Assembly (NCBI GenBank): GCA_024699495.1
Contig: JAILPK010000001.1
Location: forward strand, 18,817 to 82,816
Direction of reading: 5' to 3'
Length of the DNA: 64,000 bases
From: Bacteroidaceae bacterium
GTDB taxonomy: Bacteria > Bacteroidota > Bacteroidia > Bacteroidales > Bacteroidaceae
The notes under the pieces were generated by a model, which saw only the letters and a program-made list of their open reading frames with translations, did no database searches and was not told where the DNA came from. Below are positions 10,761-60,124 of this stretch, in pieces. The stretch's first letter is position 1; every line of letters begins with the position of its first letter. The translations under genes were made by a program, and so were the position numbers.

Positions 10761-10858
10761 TGACTTGTCAACTAAACGAGTAGTTAAGCCGTTACCAATC
10801 CTCTAAAGAATCAACTAGTCAACTACTCAAGAACTCAAAAACTCAAGAACTCAACACG
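10761..10858 (-). repeat. Octamer-periodic dispersed intergenic repeat, copy A
   Basis: On minus strand: gagttcttgagtttttgagttcttgagtagttgactagttgattctttagaggattggtaacggcttaactactcgtttagttgacaagtca; shares core with copies B and C. Confidence 0.8.
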
Positions 10859-16099: not shown

Positions 16100-16127
16100 T
16101 ATTCAACTGTTCCCGACAAGAGGCTGT

Positions 16128-16300
16128 AAGTTTTTGAGTCCTTAAGTTTTTGAGTTTTTGAGTAGTTTACAAGTGGTTAGTAGTCGAGTTGGTCCTTTAG
16201 AGGATTAGTAATGGCTTAACTTCTTAGACTCTTAAACCTCTTAAACTCTTGAACCTCTTGAACTCTTAAACCCCTTAAACCTCTTAAACTCTTGAACCCG
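16128..16300 (+). repeat. Octamer-periodic dispersed intergenic repeat, copy B, with 3' extension of CTCTTAAAC-like tandem units
   Basis: agtttttgagtccttaagtttttgag...ggtcctttagaggattagtaatggcttaac..., then cttaaacctcttaaactcttgaacctcttgaactcttaaacccc. Confidence 0.8.
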
Positions 16301-29254: not shown

Positions 29255-30036
29255 AGCATTTCTGTCTTGACGACTCTCCGCAATTCCATCTAGTGGAATT
29301 AGTAGAAACCACTTCTACCAATTCATTCCTTGCGGACTATCAGCCTCCAAGAGAAGCTGCAGTAACTGTGGTGACTGCGGATTTTCAGAACGCGGGCAGA
29401 GGGCAGGCTAATAACAAATGGGAGTCGGCTGCCGGCCAGAACCTGCTTTTCAGCATTAAGATTCATCCGCACAGCCTCCCTCCAACAAAAATCTTTGTGC
29501 TGAGCGAAGCTATTGCTCTTGCTGTTCGGGATGCCGTTGACACTGCTCTGAAGGAATCTGATGTCGTCGGTCATTCAGTAACTGTAAAATGGCCCAATGA
29601 CATATATGCAGATGATAAGAAGATTGCAGGAATCCTCATAGAAAACGAGCTGCAGGGGCAGACTATAGCGCGCGCAATAATAGGAGTGGGATTAAATGTT
29701 AACCAGGAATCATTTGTGAGCGACGCCCCCAATCCTGTTTCTCTATTTCAACTGACAGGCAAGGTCCACGAGCGGCAATTCATTCTTGGCCACATCATCA
29801 GTGTCTTCACATCGCTTTATGAATGTATTCAAAGGTGTGATTACTCTCTTGTTCATGAAACATATCTTCAATATCTCTATCGTAATAACGGAATATATGA
29901 GTTTAAAGATTCTAATGGAGTATTTGAGGCCAATATAATAGAAGTAAAACCTGATGGCATTATTTGCCTTCGGGATACTTACGGGAACATTCGGGAATAT
30001 GCTTTTAAAGAGGTGGAGTGGTGTTTGAGTTCTTAA
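29251..30036 (+). CDS. birA: Biotin--[acetyl-CoA-carboxylase] ligase
   Basis: VELVETTSTNSFL, GRGQANNKWESAAGQNLLFSI, VKWPNDIYADDKKIAGILIEN motifs. Confidence 0.93.
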   Translation: MKHFCLDDSPQFHLVELVETTSTNSFLADYQPPREAAVTVVTADFQNAGRGQANNKWESAAGQNLLFSIKIHPHSLPPTKIFVLSEAIALAVRDAVDTALKESDVVGHSVTVKWPNDIYADDKKIAGILIENELQGQTIARAIIGVGLNVNQESFVSDAPNPVSLFQLTGKVHERQFILGHIISVFTSLYECIQRCDYSLVHETYLQYLYRNNGIYEFKDSNGVFEANIIEVKPDGIICLRDTYGNIREYAFKEVEWCLSS

Positions 30037-30139
30037 GTTCTTGAGTTTTTGAGTAGACAAGTAGACGAGTTGAGAAGTTAGTTCCTTAGAGGATAGGTAA
30101 TGGCTTATCTACTTAACTACTTGCTTACTTATCCACTTT
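30027..30139 (+). repeat. Octamer-periodic dispersed intergenic repeat, copy C
   Basis: gagttcttaagttcttgagtttttgagtagacaagtagacgagttgagaagttagttccttagaggataggtaatggcttatctacttaactacttgcttactt; overlaps birA stop codon. Confidence 0.85.
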
Positions 30140-30193: not shown

Positions 30194-30904
30194 ATGGCTA
30201 AATTTAATCGTATCTTGCTAAAACTTTCTGGCGAAAGCCTAATGGGATCAAAAAAGTATGGAATAGACGAGCAGCGTCTGTCTGAATATGCAGAACAGAT
30301 TAAAGAAGTTCATGCAATGGGAGTGCAAATTGGCATCGTCATCGGAGGTGGAAATATCTTCCGCGGCCTGAGCGGGGCAGGCAAAGGTTTTGACCGCGTT
30401 AAAGGCGACCAAATGGGAATGTGCGCAACTGTCATCAACTCGCTCGCCCTAAGCAGCGCCCTCGGCTCTGTTGGAGTGAAAAGCAGGGTGCTGACGGCTA
30501 TCCGCATGGAACCCATCGGCGAGTTCTATACAAAGTGGAAGGCCATAGAGGCTATGGAGGCTGGTGAGGTTGCTATCATGAGTGCAGGCACCGGCAACCC
30601 TTATTTTACGACAGACACAGGTTCCAGTCTGCGAGGAATAGAAATAGAGGCAGACGTGATGCTAAAAGGCACGCGTGTGGACGGAGTTTATACGGCTGAC
30701 CCAGAGAAAGACCCCACGGCAGTAAAGTTCAAGGACATCACCTATGATGAGATCTACGTGCGCGGTTTGAAGGTAATGGACCTGACGGCAACTACAATGT
30801 GCAAAGAAAACAAACTGCCTATCTATGTGTTCAATATGGATATTTACGGGAATCTGAAGAAGGTCCTGGATGGAGAAGAGATAGGCACATTGGTTCACAA
30901 TTAA
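30194..30904 (+). CDS. pyrH: UMP kinase
   Basis: FNRILLKLSGESLMG, GGGNIFRG, DQMGMCATVINSLAL and DGVYTADPEKDPTA motifs; start corrected to MAKFNR. Confidence 0.96.
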   Translation: MAKFNRILLKLSGESLMGSKKYGIDEQRLSEYAEQIKEVHAMGVQIGIVIGGGNIFRGLSGAGKGFDRVKGDQMGMCATVINSLALSSALGSVGVKSRVLTAIRMEPIGEFYTKWKAIEAMEAGEVAIMSAGTGNPYFTTDTGSSLRGIEIEADVMLKGTRVDGVYTADPEKDPTAVKFKDITYDEIYVRGLKVMDLTATTMCKENKLPIYVFNMDIYGNLKKVLDGEEIGTLVHN

Positions 30905-55344: not shown

Positions 55345-58290
55345 ATGAAACATCTTAGACTCCTTTGCTGTTGGCTGATCATCTCTTTCGCCACGCAATC
55401 CTTTGCCCAGGACATGACCGAACTGACGGCAACTGAAGTAGCTAACTATGCGCGGCGGACCAGCCGCCAATATGCCGGTATCCACGACCCGAGTATTGTG
55501 CAGACAGGCAATTTGTATTACATAATGGGAACCCATCAGGGTTTTGCCCGTTCCTCCGACCTGATGAACTGGACCGGGTTGGGTATGCGCTACGCACGGG
55601 TAAACTCTGATGGCACAGTGTCCTCATGTGATTTTGCAGATGCTTACAGCGTCAATCAGACGCGCAAGGTGCGTGCTTTGGTCAACGGCGAGGTGAAGGA
55701 AGTGGACTTTGGCACTTATGATGCAAAAGCATGGGCCCGATCAGGTGTCTCTACATATAATATAGGCGGCAACCTCTGGGCTCCGGATATCATATATAAC
55801 CCTACGATGAAAAAGTGGTGTATGTATATGAGCGTTAATGGCGACGGATGGCACTCCGTGATTGTCTTGCTCACTTCTAACACCATCACCGGCGAATTTG
55901 TTTATCAGGGACCTGTCACATTCTCCGGTTTCATCAACGGGTCTGACACTATTATATCTTGGAAGAAGACTGACTTGGAACTTGTCATCGGCGAGCAGTC
56001 CTCTCTTCCTTCCCGATATAACAAGGGTGGCGCATGGGGTAGTTATTGGCCAAACAATATAGACCCTTGTGTGTTCTATGATGCAGACGGCACCCTGTGG
56101 ATGAGCTATGGCTCCTGGAGCGGAGGTATATTTATGATCAGGCTTGATCCTACCACAGGCCTGCGTGACTACACAGTAACCTATCCTGTTACTACCGTTC
56201 GTGATGACCACGCCCTGTCTGATCCGTACTTCGGAATACGCATTGCAGGAGGTGACTATGTCAGCGGAGAAGGTTCTTATATAGAAAAGATAGGTAATTA
56301 TTATTATCTCTTTATGAGCAACGGCGGTCTTGAATCCAACAGGGGATATGTGATGCGTGTATTTCGCTCCAAGAACCCTGCCGGGCCTTATGTCGATGTC
56401 CGCGGAAATACTGCCATTTACGACTGGTATGCTTTGAATTATGGCCCGGGCAACACCGACACCCGCGGCGACTTGCTTATGAGCTCATACAGCGGATGGG
56501 GATTCCAGCAGCAGGGTGAGGGCCGCGTAGCTCAGGGTCACAACTCCGCCTTTGTAGATGATAAGGGCCGGGCTTTTGTGGTCTATCATACCCGCTTCGA
56601 CGGTGGTGGTGAGTGGTTCCAGGACCGTGTTCATCAACTCTTCCTCAACCGTAATGGCTGGCTGGTGTGCGCTCCGTTTGAATATAACGGAGAGACCCTT
56701 GTTCAGGATGATTTGGATAAGGGCTGCCTCTATACTGAAGACCAGATTGTGGGCAGATATTCAGTGCTTCAACACCGTTATCGTCTTAATCACGAACAGC
56801 GGGAGACTGTTACTCCTGTTTGGATGGAGTTCACCGAGGATAATAAAGTAGTCTGCGACGGCGAGGCCGTCGGCACATGGACGATGGTGGCAGGAACCGG
56901 CTACATCACAGTTGTCATCAACAGCGAACGCTATGACGGCGTTGTGACGCGTCAGACTGTAGAGACTTCTGTGGCCAAGGCCTTGTGCATCTCGGGTCTG
57001 AACGCCAGCTCTGGTGAGCCTATGTGGGCATATAAGATGGAGCCTGAATATGCTGTGGCTTTTACCGCAAAGGATTATACGTCAGAGATCAGTGACAATG
57101 ACATAATCAACAAGAACTTTGAACTCTCCACCGCCTATAATCAATATGGAGCGTCAATTCTCTGGACCTCTTCTGAGCCCGAGGTGGTTGAGCTTGTGCC
57201 TGATGGTCAGATGTATTGGGGACATTACAATCCTGCAGATACGGTAACGCCTCTTACACTCACTTGCCGTATTTCTGCTGGCAACTCATATTATGAACAG
57301 GCCTATTCTGTAAAGGCAGCGCGCAACACTATGACCGAGGCCCAGCGTGAAGAGGCCCTCTCATCTATGGTTGCCTACTACGACTTCGAACAGACCCTTT
57401 CGTCAACTGTAAACCAGATAGATCCTACCCAGAAGATGTCCTTCACCAAGGGCAATAGTGGAACTCGCCCGGAATTGGAGCGCGGGGTAACGCGGGAGTC
57501 ACGTCATGCTAACTTCTTCGCTGGCAGTTCTGCTGCAGAGGCGTCATATGCTGTATGCCCGAATCCGCTCAAAGACAAGGATTTGAAGGATGGCTTCAGC
57601 ATTTCGCTCTGGGTGCGTTCCGACGGCAGCACATCCGACTGGTGGCTTTTGCCAATATGGAGCATCACAGACAAGCGCGCCAATATGAGCACCCTCTCTC
57701 AGACGCTTTATTTCACTCCTAATGTGACGGTCGGATTCACCGCGGGCGACGATTATTTCTATGCCAATAAGCCGGTTGAAGATGCCACCAGTGGGACTGG
57801 ATACATGGACTCCTTCGCATGGAGATTCGTCACCTTCACCTGCGACAGTTCGGGTATTGCTACCTTCGTCAATGGCGTGAAGAAGTCAGTGAAGAAATTC
57901 GAGAGCAGCGCGGGCACGGCCAACACAGCATCCAAAGCGGCAGCCCTCTTCGACTTCTCCAAGGTGCTTGATATGGTTGCTTCGGCTCAGTATATGCAGC
58001 TCGGACTCGGCGTTAAGGGTCTGGGTACTCCGCTGTTCTCTGCCGATGACCTCATCGTCCATGAAAAAGCGCTTACCGCTTCGCAGGCTGCTACACTCAA
58101 CCGCATCGCTACTCGAGTAGCCGACTTCACCTCTGGAATCAACGATGTTCCATTCGCTGACACATCCGTCTCCGGAGCAGTCTCCGACGGCTTCATACGC
58201 GACCTCTCCGGACGCCGGGTAGCTGCCAAGGATATTCGCTCACTACCCTCTGGAATATATATATTAAACGGGAAAAAGATCAAGCGGTGA
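55345..58290 (+). CDS. Secreted glycoside hydrolase family 43 (arabinan endo-1,5-alpha-L-arabinosidase-like) with LamG-like domain and T9SS-like C-terminal tail
   Basis: Signal peptide; IHDPSIVQTGNLYYIMGTHQGFARSSDLMNWTGLG; C-terminal IRDLSGRRVAAKDIRSLPSGIYILNGKKIKR. Confidence 0.9.
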   Translation: MKHLRLLCCWLIISFATQSFAQDMTELTATEVANYARRTSRQYAGIHDPSIVQTGNLYYIMGTHQGFARSSDLMNWTGLGMRYARVNSDGTVSSCDFADAYSVNQTRKVRALVNGEVKEVDFGTYDAKAWARSGVSTYNIGGNLWAPDIIYNPTMKKWCMYMSVNGDGWHSVIVLLTSNTITGEFVYQGPVTFSGFINGSDTIISWKKTDLELVIGEQSSLPSRYNKGGAWGSYWPNNIDPCVFYDADGTLWMSYGSWSGGIFMIRLDPTTGLRDYTVTYPVTTVRDDHALSDPYFGIRIAGGDYVSGEGSYIEKIGNYYYLFMSNGGLESNRGYVMRVFRSKNPAGPYVDVRGNTAIYDWYALNYGPGNTDTRGDLLMSSYSGWGFQQQGEGRVAQGHNSAFVDDKGRAFVVYHTRFDGGGEWFQDRVHQLFLNRNGWLVCAPFEYNGETLVQDDLDKGCLYTEDQIVGRYSVLQHRYRLNHEQRETVTPVWMEFTEDNKVVCDGEAVGTWTMVAGTGYITVVINSERYDGVVTRQTVETSVAKALCISGLNASSGEPMWAYKMEPEYAVAFTAKDYTSEISDNDIINKNFELSTAYNQYGASILWTSSEPEVVELVPDGQMYWGHYNPADTVTPLTLTCRISAGNSYYEQAYSVKAARNTMTEAQREEALSSMVAYYDFEQTLSSTVNQIDPTQKMSFTKGNSGTRPELERGVTRESRHANFFAGSSAAEASYAVCPNPLKDKDLKDGFSISLWVRSDGSTSDWWLLPIWSITDKRANMSTLSQTLYFTPNVTVGFTAGDDYFYANKPVEDATSGTGYMDSFAWRFVTFTCDSSGIATFVNGVKKSVKKFESSAGTANTASKAAALFDFSKVLDMVASAQYMQLGLGVKGLGTPLFSADDLIVHEKALTASQAATLNRIATRVADFTSGINDVPFADTSVSGAVSDGFIRDLSGRRVAAKDIRSLPSGIYILNGKKIKR

Positions 58291-59630
58291 CCCCACTCTC
58301 GCTCTTCGAACTGAATAACCTCGTGCGCTCCGTATTAGAGAGCACACTGCAACCATCCTATTGGGTGAAGGCAGAACTGGCAGAGGCTCGTGTGGCCTCC
58401 AACGGTCATTTCTATTGCGAATTCGTACAGAAAAACCCTGATACAAACACCTTCCTGGCAAGAGCCAGGGGGGTGATGTGGAGTCGCACATACAATATCC
58501 TCGCCCCTCTATTCGAGCGTGCTACCGGCGAACATCTGCGGGCAGGCTTGAACATTCTTGTAGAGGTCGAGCCGGAATTCCACGAGGCATATGGCTATTC
58601 GCTCAAGGTCGTTGACATAGACCCCTCTTTTACTATGGGGGATATGGCCCGCCGGCGCAAGGAGATTCTCGACAGGCTCGCAGCCGACGGCATCCTCGAA
58701 GACAATAAGACTCTCCCCCTGCCGCTGCTGATGAAGAACATCGCTGTCATCTCCTCAGCTTCGGCCGCGGGATATGGAGACTTCTGCAACCAATTGAGTT
58801 CCAACCCTTACGGACTTCACTTTAATATTCAGCTCTTCCCCGCTTCAATGCAGGGGGAGAATGTGCCTCAGAGCATTATGCATGCTCTTGAGAAGATAGC
58901 CAATCAGTGCTACGCCGACGGACAGGCGTGGCACTGTGTTGTCATAATTCGCGGCGGAGGAGCTACCAGCGACCTGGCTGACTACGAAGACTTCAATCTT
59001 GCAGCAGCTGTGGCGCAGATGCCTGTCCCGGTCATCGTGGGCATAGGACATGAACGCGATGAGACTGTGCTTGATTTTGTGGCTAATACACGTGTGAAGA
59101 CACCCACAGCCGCCGCCGCATTCATCATTGAGCATGGGGCGCAGGAACTTGCCGAACTGCAGGCTCTTGCAGATAGCCTTCGCTCTGCTGCCTCACAACT
59201 CATTACCCAGCAGCATAATGAACTGGAATCCATAGCTAAACTCTTACCTCATATCCATGCTTTGCTCCACGAGCAGCAGACTCGGCAACTCGAAGCCCTT
59301 GCTGTTCATGTGGCGAGCGCCACACAGCGTTGTCTGTGGACATCCGCTCAGGATTTGGAGAAGATCCGGACTGCTATCAGTCAGGCTCTCACCACGAAAA
59401 TACAGAAAGAGAAGTTCTGGCTTCAGTCGATGGCTCAGAGTATCGACAGTTTTAACCCTGAGGTGCTGCTTAAGCGCGGATATACACTCACCTGCCTGCC
59501 CGACGGGCAGCTCGTGCGCTCTGTTGCTGACCTGCATTCGGGCGACAGAATCACTACGATTTTCGCCGATGGAACTGCTACTGGCATAGTGGAGGAGGTC
59601 ACTGAGTCTCGCGAGTTCTTGAGTTCTTGA
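58287..59630 (+). CDS. xseA: Exodeoxyribonuclease VII large subunit
   Basis: LSLFELNNLVRSVLESTLQPSYWVKAELAEA, IIRGGGATSDLADYEDFNLAAAVAQMPVPVIVGIGHERDETVLDFVA motifs; GTG start overlapping GH43 stop. Confidence 0.95.
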   Translation: MTPLSLFELNNLVRSVLESTLQPSYWVKAELAEARVASNGHFYCEFVQKNPDTNTFLARARGVMWSRTYNILAPLFERATGEHLRAGLNILVEVEPEFHEAYGYSLKVVDIDPSFTMGDMARRRKEILDRLAADGILEDNKTLPLPLLMKNIAVISSASAAGYGDFCNQLSSNPYGLHFNIQLFPASMQGENVPQSIMHALEKIANQCYADGQAWHCVVIIRGGGATSDLADYEDFNLAAAVAQMPVPVIVGIGHERDETVLDFVANTRVKTPTAAAAFIIEHGAQELAELQALADSLRSAASQLITQQHNELESIAKLLPHIHALLHEQQTRQLEALAVHVASATQRCLWTSAQDLEKIRTAISQALTTKIQKEKFWLQSMAQSIDSFNPEVLLKRGYTLTCLPDGQLVRSVADLHSGDRITTIFADGTATGIVEEVTESREFLSS

Positions 59631-59704
59631 GTTGATAGCTTCGCAGCTGACGAGTTGGGAGGTAAGTTCTTGAGTTCTTAAGTTCTTAAGTTTTGAGTTG
59701 ACAA
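59613..59704 (+). repeat. Octamer-periodic dispersed repeat, copy D (lacks the AGAGGAT core)
   Basis: gagttcttgagttcttgagttgatagcttcgcagctgacgagttgggaggtaagttcttgagttcttaagttcttaagttttgagttgacaag; overlaps xseA stop codon. Confidence 0.7.
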
Positions 59705-59744: not shown

Positions 59745-59866
59745 TATAGATGGGATAGACAATATAGATAGGATAGACAATATAGATGGATAGACAATAT
59801 AGATGGATAGACAATATAGATGGATTGACAATATAGATGGGATAGATAATATAGATGGATAGAGTT
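59745..59866. repeat. Tandem array of 7 units of 17/18 bp (TATAGATG(G)GATAGACAA)
   Basis: Units at 59745, 59763, 59781, 59798, 59815, 59832, 59850 read directly from the sequence. Confidence 0.93.
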
Positions 59867-59923: not shown

Positions 59924-60124
59924 ATGGAAGGTAAAGAAAAAGAAATCACCTATGAGAGCGCCAAGGAGCGTCTCGAGGCAATCACCAGCGAGTTGGAGGC
60001 TGGCAATGTGCATATAGACCTTCTTGCTAAGCGGCTTAAGGAAGCTCAGGAACTGTTGCGCTTCTGCAAAGACCAACTAACCAAAGCCGAAGAAGAGGTA
60101 ACAAAACTCTTGGAAGAACAATAG
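59924..60124 (+). CDS. xseB: Exodeoxyribonuclease VII small subunit
   Basis: TYESAKERLEAITSELEAGNVHIDLLAKRLKEAQELLRFCKDQLTKAEEEVTKLL. Confidence 0.93.
   Translation: MEGKEKEITYESAKERLEAITSELEAGNVHIDLLAKRLKEAQELLRFCKDQLTKAEEEVTKLLEEQ

Follow-up and report, generated by a model that had tools for sequence, protein, structure and literature searches.

The present analysis concerns a non-coding repeat with octamer arms in a 64,000-nt stretch of the genome of a Bacteroidaceae bacterium (GCA_024699495.1, contig JAILPK010000001.1, positions 18,817 to 82,816 of the forward strand; hereafter, the window). The gap between the murG stop codon (10743) and the murC start codon (ATG, 10871) is filled by one such element, copy A (10761..10858, minus strand), which has no open reading frame (ORF). 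Related copies lie 3' of ftsZ (copy B, 16127..16300, plus strand) and before pyrH, the ATG of which is at 30194 (copy C, 30026..30138, plus strand). A first-pass annotation of the window had described A as units of about 8 bp, of opposite polarity on the two sides of a core that recurs in B and C, and had offered as candidates a miniature inverted-repeat transposable element (MITE), a REP-like (repetitive extragenic palindromic) element, a terminator or a structured RNA.

The shared core, CTTTAGAGGATTRGTAAYGGCTTA, occupies 10785-10808 (minus strand), 16195-16218 (plus strand) and 30084-30107 (plus strand), with 0, 0 and 2 mismatches, respectively. Its recurrence was borne out, as no match appeared in 100 dinucleotide shuffles (0 expected by chance). 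In A, the core reads GTTGATTCTTTAGAGGATTGGTAACGGCTTA (10785..10816, minus strand) and its end, GTAACGGCTTAACTAC, is a 16-mer common to a genus-wide family and to elements that bear a PF05635 gene, both described below. The left arm of A (10811..10856, minus strand) consists of about 5.6 units of the form (R)AGTNNNN, with a period of 8/16 according to Tandem Repeats Finder (TRF), and the short right arm (10761..10784, minus strand) consists of TTAACTAC followed by octamers of mixed polarity. TRF also detected period 8 in B (16129-16163) and in C (30025-30054, 30052-30078 and 30104-30122). Copy B is made up of a left octamer arm (16127-16186), a core (16187-16218) and a right arm (16219-16299). 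The left arm keeps the 8-bp unit, but the right arm (16218/16219-16299) has mainly a 9-bp period (AACCTCTTA), and the description in octamers does not extend to it. Copy C (core, 30077-30107) is the cleanest inverted form, with seven (R)AGT units to the left and four ACTY units to the right, the first unit overlapping the stop codon of the upstream gene. The inversion of polarity around the core is, then, clear in C but weak in the right half of A, where a single ACTAC unit is followed by mixed ones.

The host genome is a metagenome assembly (86% complete, 2.62 Mb), and the copy numbers given here rest on 813 kb of it (31%) together with whole-genome pattern searches. A search of the whole genome with the core, allowing ≤3 mismatches, returned A, B, C and one more copy, and a scan of the 813 kb with a 34-bp motif found at least eight core copies (A, B, C, L119, L121, L153 and two in L130), the reversed motif giving nothing beyond noise at 10-11 mismatches. 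Since the core is non-repetitive and yet present in at least eight copies, it is neither confined to three loci nor a low-complexity similarity, the two outcomes that the first-pass annotation had named as fatal to its proposal. Every core copy found was surrounded by 8-bp (R)AGTNNNN arrays. The octamer unit was confirmed, both by TRF and by array counts: across the whole genome, RAGTTYTT arrays (≤1 mismatch) numbered 65, versus 22 for the reversed pattern, while the 813 kb held 54 (R)AGTNNNN arrays of at least three units, 45 of them intergenic, versus five in all for the reversed motif. All ten mixed-polarity octamer clusters of the host genome run AGT then ACT, as do the PF05635-bearing elements.

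Some octamer arrays lie 3' of genes, and others separate convergent genes. In the window, arrays of the same family with no recognisable core occupy 59613..59697 (plus strand, by TRF), in the gap after the gene at 58287-59630. They are directly followed in the same gap by a repeat of a different class, a 17-bp tandem array (TATAGATGGATAGACAA; 59745-59863, 6.8 copies, 93% matches), which precedes a small ORF starting at 59925. The intergenic DNA of the host and of G015, the closest of the relatives examined (loci L099-L153), is rich in arrays of period 7, 8 and 9 that are unrelated to one another and near-absent from coding DNA, the dominant units being of the AGTTGAC/AGTTCTT type in the host and TCAATGN/AATTATG in G015. 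A search of the GTDB collection with the core gave one exact match, in a member of the Paludibacteraceae (L038); it was taken as chance, since the stretch reads as a gene end with no octamers around it.

Occupancy of the insertion sites, a check proposed in the first-pass annotation, proved to be polymorphic. In all 29 same-genus relatives examined, the murG-murC gap was short and without the element, and in G015 (MurC 90% identical) murC begins a few bases past the murG stop. The placement of A in the murC leader had been correctly noted; because this gap is empty in 29 relatives, A is a gained insertion, not an old murC leader, and was recently inserted. Copy B was absent after ftsZ in all 20 relatives read, G015 included. 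Copies A and B are, then, insertions gained in the host lineage. In addition to this polymorphism, which extends to the frdA-frdB alleles described below, the elements share with MITEs a small size (about 100-170 bp), lack of coding capacity, several genomic copies and inverted ends, although the right arm of A is short.

A search of 139 genus genomes for the right end of A (GTAACGGCTTAACTAC), with the pattern GTAWYGGCTTAACTAC, gave 71 places in 26 of them, compared with two for the reversed control. At 26 of the 30 loci read there was no ORF: AGTAGTTAAGCC was followed by 20-58 bp of partly conserved sequence and then by GGTATTGGCTTAACTACTTAACTAC, with both ends inside 8-bp arrays of opposite polarity; conservation on the right side comes from the way the loci were selected, whereas that on the left does not. 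Two of the 30 loci (L164 and L166) and, separately, L043, representing three species, contain an intact 125-codon gene between the same outward-facing ends. The gene belongs to PF05635, the 23S rRNA intervening-sequence protein (IVP) family (Pfam E-value 8e-39, and about 1e-38 across the three), for which structures are available (PDB 2gsc, 2rld), and to TIGR02436 (four helix bundle protein); matches to Avd (PF22296, NF033474) fell below the cut-off. The 16-mer end of A is in this way common to gene-bearing elements in three species. Their gene is a candidate agent of mobilisation, and copies A to C themselves have no PF05635 ORF. The core motif GTTGNTTCCTTTnnGAGG also recurs, along with AGTTGACG octamers, in the left arm of six other PF05635-bearing elements (L188, L189, L191, L200, L209 and L213).

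PF05635 genes are present in 126 of the 139 genus genomes, with as many as 17 copies per genome; of 148 genomes sampled across the phylum Bacteroidota, 116 have them. Within the genus, in other Bacteroidota and on cyanobacterial plasmids they are flanked on both sides by tandem units of about 7-9 bp, mutually inverted, with units that vary by locus (GTTAAGGA, GGTTATAA, AGTCGTTT, AGCTTAAT, CAAAGGCA and others). The match between arms was measured as the duplex energy of the 100 nt before and the 100 nt after the gene, in their own pairing and with swapped partners. Own arms paired far more strongly in the genus (-40.0 versus -26.1 kcal/mol, n=33, p=6e-11), in other Bacteroidota (-39.2 versus -28.7 kcal/mol, n=29, p=5e-6) and on cyanobacterial plasmids (-38.4 versus -28.5 kcal/mol, n=8, p=0.0095), whereas 69 neighbouring control genes showed no such difference (-25.4 versus -26.2 kcal/mol, p=0.81). 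Tandem periodicity was found in 51 of 66 genus flanks, versus two when shuffled, mostly at lag 8, and cyanobacterial flanks had mostly lag 7. Within operons, the elements occupy the interval from the stop codon of one gene to the start codon of the next. Both neighbours are co-directional with the PF05635 gene in 51 of 70 cases, and the gaps have medians of 53 and 45 bp. On three cyanobacterial plasmids (L249, L250 and L252) the PF05635 genes lie inside CRISPR-Cas operons, in the cas10/cmr3 gap in Picosynechococcus, and in the cas6/cas4 gap in Pseudanabaena and Anabaena sp. 90.

A single site, the frdA-frdB junction, was found in several states among 70 genomes. In 34 it was empty or near-empty, most with 5 bp from stop to start, and 16 carried a PF05635 element. 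The arms of these 16 fall into three unrelated families at this one position, and are therefore part of the inserts rather than of the site. In a further 13, including the host genome, the junction held an inverted repeat that lacks an ORF and comes from a different family again (GACCCTCCCCTCACCCTCCC...GGGAGGGGCAGGGGGGTGGGTC, its interior of 70-90 bp partly conserved; L304, G000:C78:1450-2410, in the host, and 12 relatives, e.g. L286, L289 and L299), a second ORF-less element family at this PF05635 hotspot. Six genomes were unresolved. In the one remaining genome (L325, G114), the 56-bp gap contains AACTCAAGTAAACGAGAAAAGTCA, resembling the leader of the octamer-armed PF05635 elements found there, and is possibly a scar of excision or deletion. 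Octamer-armed inserts at this junction mostly read TA[GTTGAC...GTCAAC]TA, compared with TAA at empty sites, which hints at a TA target-site duplication.

The explanation that best accommodates these data is that A, B and C probably belong, as ORF-less and MITE-like copies, to a family of elements inserted in intergenic DNA, in which the fuller members carry a PF05635/TIGR02436 gene between inverted arms of 7-9-bp repeats. The copies are dispersed, A and B are lineage-specific insertions, and their ends are shared with gene-bearing elements, which themselves have mutually matching inverted tandem-repeat arms and sit between stop and start codons. Among the candidates raised at first it is the MITE that gains support, from the occupancy of A and B, the multiple genomic copies and the genus-wide family with shared ends.

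Several observations count against this explanation. Copy A presents a single end and lacks the AGTAGTTAAGCC that members of the 16-mer family typically have at the other end, and the RAGTTCTT units of A to C were not seen around any IVP gene at the 30 genus loci read. The host genome, at 86% completeness, holds just two PF05635 matches, both fragments (L184, G000:C85, and L185, G000:C49), of which one lies at the edge of a contig, and no intact gene-bearing partner. Gene-bearing copies may be missing there owing to assembly breaks at repeats, and with the genome in this state the partner gene has to be inferred from relatives. The folds predicted for A, B and C as single-stranded RNA are not clearly better than those of shuffles (z = -0.3, -0.6 and -1.4), and the own arms of the ORF-less host copies pair no better than swapped arms (p=0.88), a test weakened by the use of one octamer family in all of these copies. 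The arm statistics for gene-bearing elements include several orthologous loci, such as frdA-frdB, so that not all loci are independent. Neither excision nor transposition nor RNase III cleavage was seen, and a convincing target-site duplication could not be established.

As to how such elements might move, they would act within mRNA operons as the intervening sequences (IVS) do within 23S rRNA. Pairing of the arms would separate the insert from the neighbouring cistrons, so that insertion is tolerated, and the four-helix-bundle protein may bind the arms, or the structure they form, and drive copying. Proteins of this kind could mobilise ORF-less copies such as A to C in trans, or these copies could be decayed gene-bearing ones. 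A reverse transcriptase was considered as the partner and rejected, as PF00078 is absent from the host genome and is present in 42 of the 139 genus genomes, compared with 126 for PF05635. Given this, and the lack of a Y1 transposase in the host genome, the four-helix-bundle protein acting with host enzymes is the leading candidate for mobility. A wider proposal can be put forward more tentatively, and we would not yet bet on it: that the intergenic 7-9-bp repeats of Bacteroidota and cyanobacteria are the arms or ORF-less remains of one mobile class, run by PF05635 proteins without transposase or reverse transcriptase and inserting precisely in the gaps from stop to start codon within operons, with the rRNA intervening sequences as a special case that landed in 23S rRNA.

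A different account, in our judgement unlikely but deserving of weight, dispenses with a mobile gene altogether and regards the arrays as ordinary short-tandem-repeat (STRR/LSSR-like) islands, in which 7-9-bp units expand by polymerase slippage in intergenic DNA and are inverted by hairpin template switching, IVP genes merely landing in or picking up repeats. The abundance of unrelated period 7, 8 and 9 arrays in the intergenic DNA of the host and G015, together with their scarcity in coding DNA, fits this account, as do the heptamer repeats without known mechanism reported from Beggiatoaceae, cyanobacteria and Bacteroidetes (PMC4679880) and from Xanthomonas and Nostoc (PMC4692102). However, slippage alone cannot copy a non-repetitive core to eight loci, nor can it give identical non-repetitive ends in 26 genomes, and it leaves unexplained why inverted, mutually matching arms of differing units should occur at one site around IVP genes and not around controls.

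It is improbable that the copies are cis-regulatory RNAs, that is, leaders, attenuators or intercistronic hairpins of murC, pyrH and other genes. Positions in the murC leader, before pyrH and after ftsZ would suit such a role, and C has the potential for a long imperfect stem (-33 kcal/mol), but the element is present at murC in none of the 29 relatives, and copies lie also 3' of genes and between convergent genes. An Rfam search of the window gave one match, a tRNA, and none at the element. Since the folds resemble those of shuffles, and own arms pair like swapped ones, a functional hairpin is not supported for A to C, and neither is the terminator or structured RNA first suggested. Still less credence can be given to a REP or REPIN (REP doublet forming hairpins) mobilised by a REP-associated tyrosine transposase (RAYT). 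The copies are short, dispersed, palindromic and intergenic, and form inverted pairs around a variable loop, as REPINs do, but the unit is an octamer array, not a GTAG-tagged palindrome of 20-40 bp (PMC3733652), and no Y1 transposase (Y1_Tnp, PF01797) was detected in the host genome (86% complete), although control genomes gave matches; in this strict sense, the REP-like candidate of the first-pass annotation is unsupported. Lastly, the AAGCCGA...CGGCTTAACT shape resembles integron attC recombination sites, AAGCCGAATG...GGTATTGGCTTAAC being similar, in shape alone, to their inner boxes, but single copies between housekeeping genes rather than cassette arrays, and arms made of octamer arrays, leave this idea with hardly any credibility (no search for an integrase was made).

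In the open-licence literature, no paper was found that links PF05635 genes to short-unit tandem repeats or inverted arrays. Such a link may explain the origin of many unexplained 7-9-base bacterial repeats and, if true, would turn that origin and the movement of the 23S rRNA intervening sequences and their protein into one testable problem. A further gain would be a candidate mobility protein outside both the transposases and the reverse transcriptases. PF05635 is a small, structurally known family, the role of which is open to testing; the arms predict where elements lie, and frdA-frdB offers empty, full and ORF-less alleles for comparison.

Among known systems, REPs, bacterial interspersed mosaic elements (BIMEs) and REPINs, with their RAYTs, are likewise short palindromes with variable loops, dispersed through intergenic DNA, but here octamer arrays replace the tagged palindrome, and the host genome is without a Y1 transposase. 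Avd of the diversity-generating retroelements is a homologous four-helix-bundle protein (sub-threshold PF22296/NF033474 matches; homology in PMC10053308), but no reverse transcriptase, template repeat or variable repeat lies beside the PF05635 gene, and the host genome has no PF00078. The BrickBuilt MITE of Porphyromonas gingivalis, also of the Bacteroidales, is non-coding, dispersed and intergenic, with inverted ends and tandem repeats; it differs in having a 23-bp unit in one array between short inverted ends (PMC4596501), whereas here the inverted ends are the arrays themselves, and the likely partner is a four-helix-bundle protein gene, not a transposase. The intergenic heptamers TAACTGA (Beggiatoaceae, cyanobacteria, Bacteroidetes; PMC4679880) and GGGNATC (Xanthomonas, Nostoc; PMC4692102) are comparable as short tandem units of unknown origin, strain-specific and near start or stop codons, but were described without an associated gene, while in the present elements a core or a PF05635 gene lies between inverted pairs. 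A parallel in gene content is the 23S rRNA IVS with an S23p/IVP ORF, as in Coxiella and Leptospira, which has inverted-repeat stems and is excised by RNase III (PMC4990558). It too is a selfish-looking insert of about 400-500 bp with a PF05635 ORF and stem-capable terminal inverted repeats (PMC4990558). Such repeats are found in the PF05635-bearing members described here (p=6e-11; controls, p=0.81) and are unsupported for A to C, and the ORF is present in the larger forms (L164, L166 and L043). IVSs reside in 23S rRNA (helix 25 or 45) and have a unique 28-bp repeat, whereas the present elements sit in the gaps that separate protein genes (murG-murC, after ftsZ, before pyrH, frdA-frdB and beside etfA), have arms made of 7-9-bp tandem arrays, and occur as many unlinked copies per genome.
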